Below, piece after piece: positions 7,723 through 42,215 of a stretch of DNA of 42,215 nt (its first letter is position 1; each line of letters opens with the position of its first letter). Source of the stretch: Candidatus Margulisiibacteriota bacterium. GTDB taxonomy: Bacteria; Margulisbacteria; Riflemargulisbacteria; GWF2-39-127. Location: the NCBI GenBank assembly GCA_003242895.1, contig QKMY01000005.1, positions 1 to 42,215 of the forward strand, read 5' to 3'. Both the position numbers and the translations under genes were made by a program. Below the pieces are notes generated by a model. That model was not told where the DNA came from, did not search any database, and saw nothing but the letters and a program-made list of their open reading frames with translations.

Positions 7723-10230
7723 TTGCAAGTTATAACAAAAACTATTTGCCGGATAATGATTACGGTACTCCTAGGTTTTAGCGTTGCCAGTCCAGGTATT
7801 GCCCAAGAGAAAATCAGGAACAATTATGCCTCTCCCTCAAAAAAAGCCCATCCATTACCTGCAACGCGTTGGGTAGCGGTGGGATATTCCGATCTACTTG
7901 ATAAGAATAAGATAATCAGAACCGGGCAGCCGCTGCGCTCAGCCTTAAGCGATCCCGCCCTGCGCGGCGCAGTTCAGCCATTTGTTGATCGATATTCGTA
8001 TCTTTTACCCTACGCAGTTGAGATGTTAAATGGCCCTAACCCATCCTATCATAAGGATATAACAGCTGATTACCCGATTGGAACGAGTCAGCCGGCATGG
8101 GTAGCCATCGTGCGCGAAGGAACAATCGTCGTAATGACCGACCATTCAGGGAGTGCACAAGTCTTTCTCCCGGCAGAGAGCGCACATTCTGCGTATGTAC
8201 AGCACTACCCGGTTATCCGGCACGCTCTCTCGACACTCCTGCCCACGGATGGATCAGCATTAGCTGTCGAAGTGTACGCCTATAAGCATAGCTACCGAAA
8301 TTCAGAATTTCAGCTTAATCCCCAGCCTTATCGCTTTCGTTCGGCGAGTTTTCCTCGACCGGCAGGAACTATACCGCTCGATCTGGCAGGGCTGGAAACT
8401 TTTTTTACTCGCGGAGGGCAGCTGGAATGCGCTGAGATTTCAAGACAAAAGGGACTGATCCTCTATGCAAAAGAAGCTTCGAAACAGACTCTATCCGGAC
8501 AAAAAATTGCTCTTTCCGATTTCGCTGTTGCGTACCGGGCAGTTTTTCATGCGGGTGACAACCAGGCGTTCATTAGTCTGGACCCGCACAAAGACATTAC
8601 CAAGACTACGGTTAATTTCGGCGGACTGCTTGAGGATACCCGGATCGGCTCTGTAGTACTGGAAGCGGATAAACGTTTCAAGACCATTTCCAGTGGAATT
8701 GATCCGACGACCTACCAGGATATGCGACAGTATACGCGACGTTTTGTTCCGGGATTTTTGTCGGTTTCCGAAAGGGAGTTTGTTACCGACTATGAAGACA
8801 ATTCCAGTAACTGGATAAAAACGCGGTTCTGGTTCTACCCTGATTCGATCGATATGATAACTGATGCAGCTAATCATTTTGTCAAGATTAATAGCCCCCA
8901 ATTCACAGCTGATGCAGAGCGAAGCAGCGATGATTTTTCTTCCAATGCAGAGTATCAGAGAAAAAAGAAACAGGCGCTTCTGCCAAGCATTCGAAAGAAT
9001 ATCGATCATTTGAACCAGCATTACGCTGAGTATGCCAAAGCATATCAGGATATCAACGAACTTTCGAATGTTGGCCGGCTAATGGGAATATGCAGTTGGC
9101 TCAGTAAGGCCAAGGCACCTTGGCTGGACCTTGCTGAGCTGTTGTCAGTCGAACTGCCGCCCTGTCAGACGGAACGGGAACGAACACAGATGATAACCGT
9201 TTCCTACCTGGCAACAAACAACGCGGCAATAAACGAAGAGACAGTCAATGAGAAGGTAAAGGTCAGCTTTTTAAGTCCTCTGCTCGACCAGCCAGTGAAA
9301 GCATGTTTTGGCAATCAGGATAACCTGGCTGAGTTTCTGGCGAGAAAAAGCAACAAACCAGCGACTACAATGGATTTTTACAAAAAAGAATCCCGGAAAT
9401 TATTTAATGCTCCCATTACAGCACGAGAATTGATTTCTTCAAAACATGATCTTGAAATGTTTGCGGTTTATAACGCCGGCCGGATTGATAAAGGTCCGGT
9501 ATATATCGCTGACAAAGAAATTATCGAAAAAGAGAAAAAAACACTGGATACAATATTTGCTACTCTCAACACAATAAAAAAGCAAATCGATTCGCCGGAT
9601 GTCACAAGTAAAAACTTGTTAATCGAGAAATACAAGGAGCTGGTTAATCTCTACAATTCAAAGGGAGAAGCGCTCACAAAAAAAATCGAGAACTATAACG
9701 CCCTGGTCGGTAACTCAAGACATAAATTATTCGTCGAAATTAGTGGCGGCATCAATTTGGAACCTAAATATTTCGCAATAAAAAAATCAACGGATGCTAA
9801 TGAATTCCGTCATTTAAAACACGTCAAAGACAACAATTGGACGCAGTTCGCTAATTCTGGAAAGTGGATTAGGAGTCGGGTCGACAGTCCTAGAGGACCA
9901 AGAGCTCAGACTCCTCCGCAAAAAAAACAATCTGCCTTTGATTCTATTCCAGGATTATCATTCCTTCGTTCTCTCAGAAACGAAAAACCTATCGCCAGCA
10001 AAAATAAACCTCAAGATAATTATTCGATTACCAGAAATGCCCAGACTCAGTCCTGGAGTGATTCATACTCGGAGCAGGCTTCCGTAAGCCGCACCAGGAG
10101 CTTTGACGGAACAAGGAAAACATTGAAGATCACCGATTATCACAATGGCAAAGTCGCATCAGAGATCAAAGGTGAAATGGTCAATAACAACAAAATTGTC
10201 TTCACGAAAATTCCGGACAAAGACAACTAA
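7723..10230 (+). CDS. large secreted protein of unknown function
   Basis: I do not recognise this 835-residue protein. The N-terminus is a signal peptide: basic residues, a hydrophobic run (IMITVLLGFSVASPG) and a likely cleavage after GIA before QEK. The body is a mixed alpha/beta globular region to about residue 570, then a coiled-coil stretch around 600-670 rich in Lys and Glu (such as KKQIDSPD and YKELVNLYNSKGEAL). A Ser/Pro/Gln-rich low-complexity segment occupies about 725-790 and a short terminal domain follows. The start is a TTG nine bases after AAGGAG; a later ATG would cut into the signal peptide. It ends 13 bases from the convergent PycTM gene. An extracytoplasmic or cell-surface role is the only inference supported. 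Confidence 0.6.
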   Translation: MQVITKTICRIMITVLLGFSVASPGIAQEKIRNNYASPSKKAHPLPATRWVAVGYSDLLDKNKIIRTGQPLRSALSDPALRGAVQPFVDRYSYLLPYAVEMLNGPNPSYHKDITADYPIGTSQPAWVAIVREGTIVVMTDHSGSAQVFLPAESAHSAYVQHYPVIRHALSTLLPTDGSALAVEVYAYKHSYRNSEFQLNPQPYRFRSASFPRPAGTIPLDLAGLETFFTRGGQLECAEISRQKGLILYAKEASKQTLSGQKIALSDFAVAYRAVFHAGDNQAFISLDPHKDITKTTVNFGGLLEDTRIGSVVLEADKRFKTISSGIDPTTYQDMRQYTRRFVPGFLSVSEREFVTDYEDNSSNWIKTRFWFYPDSIDMITDAANHFVKINSPQFTADAERSSDDFSSNAEYQRKKKQALLPSIRKNIDHLNQHYAEYAKAYQDINELSNVGRLMGICSWLSKAKAPWLDLAELLSVELPPCQTERERTQMITVSYLATNNAAINEETVNEKVKVSFLSPLLDQPVKACFGNQDNLAEFLARKSNKPATTMDFYKKESRKLFNAPITARELISSKHDLEMFAVYNAGRIDKGPVYIADKEIIEKEKKTLDTIFATLNTIKKQIDSPDVTSKNLLIEKYKELVNLYNSKGEALTKKIENYNALVGNSRHKLFVEISGGINLEPKYFAIKKSTDANEFRHLKHVKDNNWTQFANSGKWIRSRVDSPRGPRAQTPPQKKQSAFDSIPGLSFLRSLRNEKPIASKNKPQDNYSITRNAQTQSWSDSYSEQASVSRTRSFDGTRKTLKITDYHNGKVASEIKGEMVNNNKIVFTKIPDKDN

Positions 10231-38586: not shown

Positions 38587-41007
38587 ATGAACATTTTCAT
38601 AACCAAATTGATTTGTTTTACAGATGCAGTCTCTACTCAAACACTAACAGAAAAAGCCTTCGGAGTGACCGAAGAGGTTCATGCCCGGGCACTTTCTGCG
38701 ATGGAGTTATCAGCTAAGGCGAGAAACCTTTATTCCCATATAGCTCAAAACAGGATAATCGGCCTGGTGCCTGATATGGGGTTTAATCGGGACGGACAGG
38801 AGACAAAAGAAATCGGTTTAAATTCTGACAAGTCTATGTTATTGCACCCGGAAAGTTATAGCGCGTTTATCTTGTATTCAATCCTTACCAAGTTAATAAA
38901 TGGCTCAGTAATGTACCTTGGCGATCCTGGGACAGGCAAGACCAGTATGGCAATGATGATGGGAATGGCAGCAGGCAGAGAATATAACCAGCTCAAAAAA
39001 GAAGTCGTCCATGGACAACCTCAATTAACGATCAGTGATCTATTCGGGAACCTGAACCTGGCAGAGTATCAGAAAGGCGCTGTTAAAGCCATATTCCATG
39101 AACGAATAACTAATCAACAAGCCGACCTGATCATTGACGAAATTAACCGTATCCCGACCAAGACCCAGTCCGCAATTTTGAATCTGCTGGCAGAAAAATA
39201 TGTAGAATTGTTTGGGCAGGTAATGGATGTTAATGACAGGGCCATATTTGCCACGATGAACGATAAGAACGGTGGCGGGACCTATGATCTGATAGATGCC
39301 CTGCGTGATAGATTTAATATAGCTGTAATGGCCTATCCACGTAATTATACCTATACAGGAATAACCACTCCTGATAATACCTCCAAATTCCCGGAAGAGT
39401 ATATTTTCAAGGCGGATGAACTCAATACCCTAAGAACTCAGATTGAAGGCCTAAAGGTATCCAGTGATGCACAGCGCAGACTGCAGTTTTTCTTATCAAT
39501 ACTCAATACAGCGGAAAATGCCGCAAATATGCCTGAACACGGATACAAGGCAAATGTGTCCGGCTCAGGAGTAAAAAGTTCCTCGGTGTTCAACAGCAAA
39601 GGCCATGATGACGCAAAAAAATATCCAGGAGCTTTGATTGAAGGAACCGTGAGTGACCGCTTTCTGCGGTCAGTGCTGCATTATGCAAAAGCACTGACGT
39701 GGTTCAGGGGTAAGGAGCAGTGCGATACCGAAGATATTGCGGCGGTAATAACCCCAGCGTCGCTGCATCGGTTTACACCTTCTCCGCACTTTGAAAAGAT
39801 TGATCTAATGTACAAATATGATGCCTGGGAGAGAAGCCGGTATTTGTGGCAACAGGCTATGGATAAATATGATACGAGGTATCCCGGCAAACAGGAGACG
39901 GTAAGCGAAATAAAGAGCGTATCTCAATATTTTAGCGATGAACAATATGAACAGGCATCGGCATACGATAACTACTGGGACCTGAAGGATGCAGTCGAGG
40001 AACTGCCGGACTCCGGCGGGAAGTTGTCAGTAATTTATAAATCTATGGAAGAGTTTGCGAAGGATCATCTGGAGGGTTCTGAAGGACTGGAAGAACTGCT
40101 GGCCATGAAACTATTGTTTTACGAACACTATGGGCAGGTGCTGGATGGCAAGGCACTCCAAAATATCATCACCGAGACAGCTACACCTTCGCAAGTAAAG
40201 GAAAAAGTTGTTCAAAAAACGAGTCCGGTAGCAGTAACGAATAATATTGCTAATACTGATAGCGCTAGTATGAAATATGTTAAGATTCCCGGCGGCAATA
40301 ATATCCAGTTTGGTTCAACCGAATTTGATGATAACCCAGCGCATACAGTGAGCCTATCACCATTTAGTATAAGTGAGACTCCTGTTACCCAAGCGATGTA
40401 TGAGCAGGTAGTGGGAAGCAACCCATCCAGCTTCACAAAAACAAATGATAAAATCAAGGCCGCTGGAATAACAGATACTGGCAAACATCCAGTAGAGAAA
40501 GTCAACTGGAATGAAGCGAATATATATGCCCAGAAGTTGTCATTACTGGCAAATGATATAGATGCCAAAATAAAAAAAGATATTAAAGATTTGTGTCCGG
40601 ACGATTATAACAAATATGTACTAGAGCATCCCGGGAAAGGTTTGTACCGGTTGCCAACGGAAGCGGAATGGGAGCATGCAGCACAAGATGAAGGAGATGA
40701 ACCCTGGAGAGATCAGAATAGCGGCGACAGAACGCACAGTGTGGATGAAGGTAAGGCAAACAAATACGGGCTAAAAATGAGGGGAAATGTATGGCAGTGG
40801 TGTGCTGATACGTGGGATAGAGAATTTTGGAAGACGACGAAAGGACAAGACCCAGTAAATCTGAGCACACGCGGTTCCCGTGTGGTCCGCGGCGGTTCTT
40901 GGAGCCTTAGCGATGATGACCGCTTTCGCGCCGCGTACCGTGGCAGCTACGATGCGAATGATCGTCTCAGCAATCTCGGCTTCCGTCTCGTCAGAACTGG
41001 TGAGTAA
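38587..41007 (+). CDS. MoxR-type AAA ATPase fused to an FGE-like C-type lectin domain, probable DGR target protein
   Basis: An 806-residue two-domain protein. AAA module: Walker A GDPGTGKT (residues 112-119), Walker B LIIDEINR (181-188), then FATMN, the sensor-1 region, and ALRDRF, the arginine-finger region, in the MoxR arrangement. A helical linker (about 420-545) follows. Residues 562-806 form an FGE/sulfatase-modifying domain (YVKIPGG, FGSTEFDDNPAH, LPTEAEWEHAA, GNVWQWCAD, VVRGGSW, GFRLVR), which has the C-type lectin fold. The two catalytic Cys of true formylglycine-generating enzymes are absent, so it is a binding domain. The last 130 bases look like a DGR variable region (see 40871-41003). 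Such AAA plus lectin proteins are expected to sense a ligand and switch an ATPase; that is inference. AAGGA lies about eight bases before the ATG. Confidence 0.82.
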   Translation: MNIFITKLICFTDAVSTQTLTEKAFGVTEEVHARALSAMELSAKARNLYSHIAQNRIIGLVPDMGFNRDGQETKEIGLNSDKSMLLHPESYSAFILYSILTKLINGSVMYLGDPGTGKTSMAMMMGMAAGREYNQLKKEVVHGQPQLTISDLFGNLNLAEYQKGAVKAIFHERITNQQADLIIDEINRIPTKTQSAILNLLAEKYVELFGQVMDVNDRAIFATMNDKNGGGTYDLIDALRDRFNIAVMAYPRNYTYTGITTPDNTSKFPEEYIFKADELNTLRTQIEGLKVSSDAQRRLQFFLSILNTAENAANMPEHGYKANVSGSGVKSSSVFNSKGHDDAKKYPGALIEGTVSDRFLRSVLHYAKALTWFRGKEQCDTEDIAAVITPASLHRFTPSPHFEKIDLMYKYDAWERSRYLWQQAMDKYDTRYPGKQETVSEIKSVSQYFSDEQYEQASAYDNYWDLKDAVEELPDSGGKLSVIYKSMEEFAKDHLEGSEGLEELLAMKLLFYEHYGQVLDGKALQNIITETATPSQVKEKVVQKTSPVAVTNNIANTDSASMKYVKIPGGNNIQFGSTEFDDNPAHTVSLSPFSISETPVTQAMYEQVVGSNPSSFTKTNDKIKAAGITDTGKHPVEKVNWNEANIYAQKLSLLANDIDAKIKKDIKDLCPDDYNKYVLEHPGKGLYRLPTEAEWEHAAQDEGDEPWRDQNSGDRTHSVDEGKANKYGLKMRGNVWQWCADTWDREFWKTTKGQDPVNLSTRGSRVVRGGSWSLSDDDRFRAAYRGSYDANDRLSNLGFRLVRTGE
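40871..41003 (+). other. putative DGR variable region (VR) in the lectin domain
   Basis: By hand count 81 of these 133 bases are G or C, against 59 of the preceding 130. In the 26 codons 40903-40980, 24 end in C or T, as expected where AAC/AAT codons of a template repeat have been randomised at adenines. These codons give exactly the positions that vary in known FGE-type DGR targets: after RGGSW, around (R/A)A(Y/N)R and before GFR. The invariant 3' part (GGCTTCCGTCTCGTC) would be the mutagenic-homing anchor. No template repeat or reverse transcriptase is present in the window, so the assignment rests on composition and pattern. Confidence 0.6.
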
Positions 41008-41114
41008 TACTTTGTCCTTTTACTTTTTTACACTTTGAATAGAATTGCAACTTTTTTCTATACTGAAAAATCTGTTGGAAGCAAAATATATCCGAAATAA
41101 AAAAGATCATCTGA

Positions 41115-41399
41115 TCAAAAACAATATTTTTCAATTAAATCAAGCAGATGTTCCGGAACATCCTGGAAAAAAGAATCGAAAGTAAGAGGCTGGTATTCAG
41201 GATCAATTTTGTATCTATAAAGTGAATAATGATTATCGAACACAACAGGAGGCAATATAAGGAGTTGAGGGTTAACATTTGGAAAATCTTCATTTAGTAT
41301 TTGTAACGGAGTATTCCATTTTTTGCCACTATTTTTCTTATCATATTGAACCAGATTTGTTTGTTGGCTGCTTGGGTAAAGAAATCTTTTTTTGAACAT
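41115..41399 (-). CDS. hypothetical protein
   Basis: A 94-residue protein with no recognised motif. It is rich in Tyr, Phe, Pro and Asp (LLILPPVVFD, YRYKIDPEYQPLTFDSF) and ends in a helix VPEHLLDLIEKYCF; no signal peptide or membrane helix. GGAGG lies six bases before the ATG, which makes a real gene likely. It is divergent from the coiled-coil gene at 41490. Confidence 0.55.
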   Translation of the reverse strand: MFKKRFLYPSSQQTNLVQYDKKNSGKKWNTPLQILNEDFPNVNPQLLILPPVVFDNHYSLYRYKIDPEYQPLTFDSFFQDVPEHLLDLIEKYCF

Positions 41400-41845: not shown

Positions 41846-42135
41846 TTATATTTTGCTTTTATTGCTCGTAAATCCTTGCTCTTTTCCCATACGCTTACGT
41901 TCCTTGATTTTATTGTTCCGTTTCAAAACTCTATATACCGTTATAGCCGCCACTCCAATATCGTATTGATGTTTCAAGTTAGTAGCAACCATTTCTTCTA
42001 ATCCTCGGCATTCTATTATTTTATTTTCTAGTTCTTCTGAGGTTTTATTAGGGCTATTATGGGTATATCCACGGCAGGTTCCTTTCTTTTAGTAAGTTCG
42101 CACTCACTATTATAACCCCAACTCCTAAACAGAGA
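41846..42135 (-). pseudogene. remnant of an HTH/IS481-like transposase
   Basis: A minus-strand frame reads GYTHNSPNKTSEELENKI, then LKHQYDIGVAAITVYRVLKRN and KERKRM before a stop at 41846-41848. The pattern (SPN.TSEELE..I, then a helix-turn-helix ending VYRVLKRNN.I.ER) is that of the DNA-binding part of IS481/IS3-type transposases. Upstream the homology continues (GYNSECELTKRK) in another frame, with a one-base shift around 42082-42092. No DDE catalytic domain follows. The protein is truncated and frameshifted, so it is an inactive insertion-sequence scar. Its 5' end may run past the window. Confidence 0.65.
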
Positions 42136-42215
42136 ACTATAGCAACTCAAAAAAACATTGTAGTGATATTGAAAAATAGAGGAGAACAAGAATCACCTAA
42201 TTGGTGAGAAAATAT

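Follow-up and report, generated by a model that had tools for sequence, protein, structure and literature searches.

The window considered here, that is, the whole 42,215-base stretch of DNA that was analysed, is the complete contig C5 of a 3.35 Mb genome in 82 contigs, rated 100% complete, whose host phylum, Margulisbacteria in GTDB usage, we take to be the same as 'candidate division WOR-1'. Towards its downstream end lies a gene that joins a MoxR AAA ATPase to an FGE-sulfatase domain, followed directly by a pyrimidine-rich element and a fragment of an avd gene (Table 1). Pfam recognizes AAA_5/AAA_3 and, at residues 363-404, AAA_lid_2, which bears out the MoxR-type assignment made in a preliminary description of this DNA, and the best solved relative of the AAA domain is 2r44 (5e-7). 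The FGE domain forms the C-terminal end of the protein, closing with RGGSW...GFR, and the tail, with which a gene of the C-type-lectin fold ends at its 3' side, thus occupies the place of a variable region (VR) of a diversity-generating retroelement (DGR). The solved structure closest to this domain by sequence is itself a DGR target, TvpA of Treponema denticola (2y3c, E=2.1e-28), followed by the FGE enzyme 6muj (9.8e-17); a structure prediction of the domain was set aside at a pLDDT of 38.6 (4-row alignment). The same MoxR-FGE architecture is found in a paralogue at C7:12847-15264 (77% identity) and on the WOR-1 contig METM01000026.1 (39%), the latter being the one relative returned by a genome-wide peptide pattern. 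Elsewhere the window carries a phosphofructokinase gene (Pfam) and, as read from the open reading frames, what appear to be genes for biotin synthesis and pyruvate phosphate dikinase; these are otherwise ordinary-looking cellular genes, and the window is therefore not phage. Viral contigs contained no relative of the ATPase-lectin gene and no match to the tail pattern, the tail DNA gave no match to phages and plasmids or only matches of 31-36 bases at E 0.01, and Rfam had no match between 38000 and 42215. The contig breaks off 1.2 kb downstream of the gene in a dispersed repeat, copies of which, 92-100% identical, lie at the ends of C19 and C62 and inside or at the ends of C43, C58, C61 and C81.

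Table 1. Features of the ATPase-lectin locus, in positions of the window
Feature	Position	Strand	Basis or remark
MoxR AAA ATPase with C-terminal FGE-sulfatase (C-type-lectin-like) fusion, 806 codons; DGR-type target gene	38587..41007	+	Pfam
MoxR-type AAA domain (AAA_5/AAA_3), about residues 105-247	38899..39327	+	Pfam
FGE-sulfatase domain, residues 564-803, 4.4e-39	40276..40995	+	Pfam
Variable-region-like tail RGGSW...GFRLVRT	40888..40998	+	hypervariable core codons 773-797 = 40903-40977
Post-VR pyrimidine-rich element CTTTGTCCTTTTACTTTTTTACACTTTGA	41010..41038	+	common to confirmed DGR targets of the phylum
avd fragment, 30 codons, IELQLFSILKNLLEAKYIRNKKDHLIKNNI, matching bAvd at about residues 41-70 and lacking both its N- and its C-terminal part	41039..41128	+	profile 22.9 bits
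108-base dispersed repeat at contig end (assembly break)	42108..42215	.	also at ends of several other contigs

The tail stands out by composition. The G+C rise first described from the letters alone is exact (81 of 133 bases at 40871-41003, against 59 of 130 at 40741-40870), and only 15 of the 42,083 sliding 133-mers of the window reach 81 G+C or more, all of them starting at 40858-40872, so that the GC peak of the window is one place. A jump this sharp has the look of a DGR-written tail here, since the VR of the complete cassette L016 has a G+C content of 0.63 against 0.42 upstream; in L016, all 24 of the 24 differences between VR and template repeat (TR) fall at template adenines. The count of 24 out of 26 core codons ending in C or T also proved accurate, but FGE tails are generally rich in such codons and the raw figure therefore overstates the case; the informative number is the excess of C/T third bases conditioned on the amino acids, for which 16.4 would be expected if codons were used as in the gene as a whole (P=2e-5) and 17.1 if they were used as in 16 ORFs of the window (P=2.5e-4). 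Across 605 sliding 26-codon segments of these ORFs, P nowhere fell below 0.0056. By this measure the window tail is the most extreme of 47 FGE-type tail motifs scored within the phylum and beyond, and the confirmed DGR targets of L016 (0.0074) and L014 (0.021) are both weaker. The template of L014, a DGR confirmed in this phylum, has AAY codons at 13 positions (hereafter template-N positions); there the codons of the window tail end in C or T every time, as do those of the confirmed targets of L014, L016 and L019, while the paralogue does so at 10 of 13, and some FGE tails with the full 13 belong to genomes in which no reverse transcriptase (RT) was found. Between the window gene and its paralogue, codons 770-796 differ 24 times at first and second positions and 7 times at third positions, the most extreme ratio in the gene; the paralogue's tail shows no GC jump, and one recent template for both tails was ruled out because their 3' constant parts differ synonymously at codons 797-801. 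Taken together, the conditioned codon excess, the template-N positions and the GC jump sustain the variable-region signatures that had been ascribed to the tail.

The flank says more about a DGR past than the tail does. Behind the stop codon, confirmed targets of the phylum carry an element of the type CYTTTTnC...TTTACACYTT, which the window shares with five of them and which was picked up post hoc, on inspecting the flanks of a small phylum set; the window copy ranks first among the window's 4216 60-mers, both strands counted, and its score is reached in 4 of 500 dinucleotide shuffles. Leave-one-out scores over the FGE set fall into a high group, containing the confirmed targets, and a low group; element strength and codon bias do not vary together over that set (Spearman 0.14, p=0.38). 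The 77% identical paralogue has no such element, and the distant MoxR-FGE gene of G051 has one. As separate observations, the pyrimidine-rich stretch lies just 3' of the stop in the targets of L014, L016, L017, L018 and L019 and also in L051 and L052 from other phyla, is often followed by a G-rich run, and is accompanied by a long perfect hairpin in L016 only; it is possibly an alternative to the known post-VR hairpin. No inverted repeat with a stem of at least 7 follows the window VR, unlike in BPP-1 and L016, and L014 and L017 lack one as well. Directly after the element comes the avd fragment, which scores 22.9 bits (E 4.6e-6) against a profile built from five Avds of the phylum; in 647 kb of fetched sequence, scanned both as it stands and reversed (1.3 Mb), the best chance match reached 11.5 bits, and everything else above that value was an Avd at a DGR or RT locus. 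Pfam bAvd does not recognize these 30 codons, and the remaining 1.1 kb of the contig yielded no RT remnant. Where the cassette is intact, avd immediately follows the target gene in the same orientation, and the fragment therefore lies in the expected slot and on the expected strand.

Such cassettes do exist in the phylum, for which the literature searched holds nothing on DGRs. RVT_1 matches occur in 18 of 74 genomes; FGE-target DGR cassettes lie on G002 contig 21, G068 contig 189 and G033 contig 4, the complete ones, L014 (G068) and L016 (G002, from the window's own class), are ordered FGE target, bAvd, RT and template, and L017, L018 and L019 likewise have RT and Avd matches. They are frequently found on contigs of 4-7 kb, one of them between Tn3-type inverted repeats. 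In that one, L016 1-5140 (G002 contig 21), terminal inverted repeats that match exactly over at least 39 bases enclose a complete DGR, a resolvase and a DUF4158 protein. DUF4158 is the N-terminal domain of Tn3 transposases, and a Tn3-like transposon apparently carries the DGR of L016, provided that the contig ends did not arise in assembly. A second relic was seen on G054 contig 115 (L105), where an FGE target and post-VR element are followed on the minus strand, at about 9504-9623, by an avd fragment of 40 residues scoring 47 bits, the G054 genome having no RVT_1 match. Post-VR elements were also noted behind FGE genes of other genomes without an RVT_1 match (L075/L107 in G060, L088/L104 in G016 and L010 in G051), and orphan DGR-type targets may be common in the phylum.

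The preliminary description had placed the tail as a target distant from its cassette, and had proposed a genome-wide search for a near-identical copy differing at adenines and for a DGR reverse transcriptase, holding that the failure of both would count against the DGR reading. No second copy of the tail was found by BLAST in the 3.35 Mb genome, and an adenine-tolerant pattern, in which any non-A base of the tail may be A in the template, matched the tail itself alone with up to 3 mismatches across the whole assembly, and the same approach with the tail of the C7 paralogue also returned no template; in the control loci L014, L016 and L017 it finds the real template/variable pairs. RVT_1 (PF00078) has a single match in the genome, C4:5361-6383 (L012), which was ruled out as a DGR driver as it carries a GIIM domain and is a group II intron maturase, and tblastn with the DGR RT of a same-class genome matched only this C4 locus and no DGR RT. 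With neither template nor DGR RT in the assembly, the distant-cassette placement is not supported, the more so with the avd fragment and the post-VR element lying directly behind the gene, and the results speak against present activity; past writing by a DGR is not refuted by them.

We therefore consider it likely that the gene is a DGR target whose cassette decayed in place around it while the variable region survived as last written; the avd fragment and element directly behind it point to this in-place decay. Very probably the gene's end was once randomly rewritten by a DGR. The ancestral cassette would have run from the FGE target gene through the post-VR element, avd and RT to the template repeat, and mutagenic retrohoming would have overwritten the 3' end of the MoxR-FGE gene from a template rich in G+C and in AAY codons, the template RNA being copied with errors at adenines and the cDNA taking the place of that end, as the DGR mechanism has it (PMC3240598, PMC8144416). 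First and second codon positions would thereby have been randomised with the C/T third bases staying fixed, giving the FGE domain new ligand-binding surfaces. Most of avd, the RT and the template would later have been lost by deletion, so that the variant written last, the pyrimidine element and the 30-codon avd scrap remained, and with RT and template gone the present variant would be frozen. That the tail itself was written by the lost cassette, and in what order the parts were lost, we infer; as the C/T pattern is still intact, the loss may be recent or the pattern under selection. The gene has the appearance of a sensor that once varied and is now frozen, and we do not class the locus as a working DGR.

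Ongoing diversification of the tail is unlikely. It would call for an RT and template that still act in trans on a remote target and are missing from the assembly because they lie past the contig break, on a mobile element or in unbinned sequence, and the break at a dispersed repeat behind the gene, the small contigs and the Tn3-type setting of phylum cassettes, and the C/T ending still kept at every template-N position all suit this idea. Trans activity is documented by Dore et al. for Thiohalocapsa PB-PSB1, and they also describe a locus whose RT and TR show only in structural variants (PMC10907252); together with the contig's ending in a repeat, this precedent leaves a trans-acting or missing cassette a small probability. 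Against it speak the completeness rating of the genome, the lack of any DGR RT by profile or tblastn, the lack of a template copy in the adenine-tolerant search and the broken avd next door, and we regard it as improbable. Somewhat less probable again is that tail, element and avd scrap were imported jointly by recombination from a DGR target on another replicon, no cassette ever having worked here: the GC jump sets in abruptly on its 5' side, near 40858-40872, the paralogue has neither element nor jump, and DGRs are mobile, but VR replacement by retrohoming yields an equally sharp edge, and since a distant relative, the MoxR-FGE gene of G051, carries the element too, the target state is more readily seen as inherited. 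The reading as an ordinary FGE/C-type-lectin tail that was never a DGR target, its pattern due to protein composition, local gene conversion or chance and its flank similarities coincidental, can draw on the RGGSW...GFR frame and the C/T-ending codons common to all FGE tails, on the genome's lack of RT or TR and on the paralogue without a GC jump, but is very improbable given a codon excess that persists after conditioning on amino acids and an element and avd scrap that are independent of the protein and placed exactly as in DGR cassettes, the scrap disfavouring it strongly.

The function, as we infer it, would be that of a ligand-sensing MoxR ATPase working with a vWA-type partner like the paralogue's neighbour. 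A vWA-like gene with DASGS and HEIGHH motifs adjoins both the paralogue and the WOR-1 relative (the G051 gene), its protein having no Pfam match; the window holds no vWA partner, and no VMAP protein was noticed. In its own right, a conserved MoxR partner with the HEIGHH motif was seen at L011 10290-12269, L010 9316-11052 and L098 3-479, with DASGS in the first two, and as these proteins match nothing in Pfam or PDB they probably represent an undescribed metallopeptidase-vWA protein family. MoxR would act as the motor, and on ligand binding its ATPase would drive the remodelling of an effector, in line with proposals for MoxR-vWA systems (PMC7159879, PMC10907252). It is an improbable further step that a MoxR with a fused diversified lectin serves as an immune-type sensor and that DGR machinery brought in on transposons or in unassembled replicons acts in trans to rewrite its orphan VRs, which are common in this phylum in the absence of a resident RT.

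Published surveys take the RT as their starting point and state that remote targets are missed (PMC8144416). Here a DGR target is recognisable after the loss of template and RT by three independent marks, namely the third-base signature, the post-VR element and the avd scrap, and if these marks hold, frozen or orphan DGR targets become countable in incomplete genomes. DGRs, FGE targets and MoxR-linked conflict systems are already known; as far as the literature searched shows, the direct MoxR-FGE fusion as a DGR target, a relic with an avd scrap and a phylum-specific post-VR element are new.

Compared with DGRs that have FGE/CLec targets (TvpA and the phylum cassettes), the locus is alike in its VR in an FGE tail, its C/T third bases at template-N positions, its GC jump, its post-VR element and an avd directly behind the target, and differs in having an avd fragment only, no RT, no template repeat and no post-VR hairpin with a stem of at least 7, and in that its target is a MoxR ATPase fusion. 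With the formylglycine-generating enzymes (SUMF1, bacterial FGE) it has the Pfam domain in common, the tail aligning end to end, but the two active-site cysteines of the FGE tail (CHxxxC) have no counterpart in the window's SWSLSDDDRF stretch, and the domain is for this reason likely a binding scaffold. DGR-linked MoxR conflict systems had been invoked in the preliminary description, and they are indeed published: the MoxR-vWA ternary systems with a DGR-diversified FGS (Kaur et al., 2020, PMC7159879; Dore et al., 2024, PMC10907252) share with the window a MoxR and a variable FGE/FGS lectin, but in the available text of these papers the FGS is either a fusion partner of the vWA protein or encoded next to MoxR, whereas here it is carried by MoxR itself, and with this direct fusion the DGR-diversified conflict sensors that have been proposed take a compact form.
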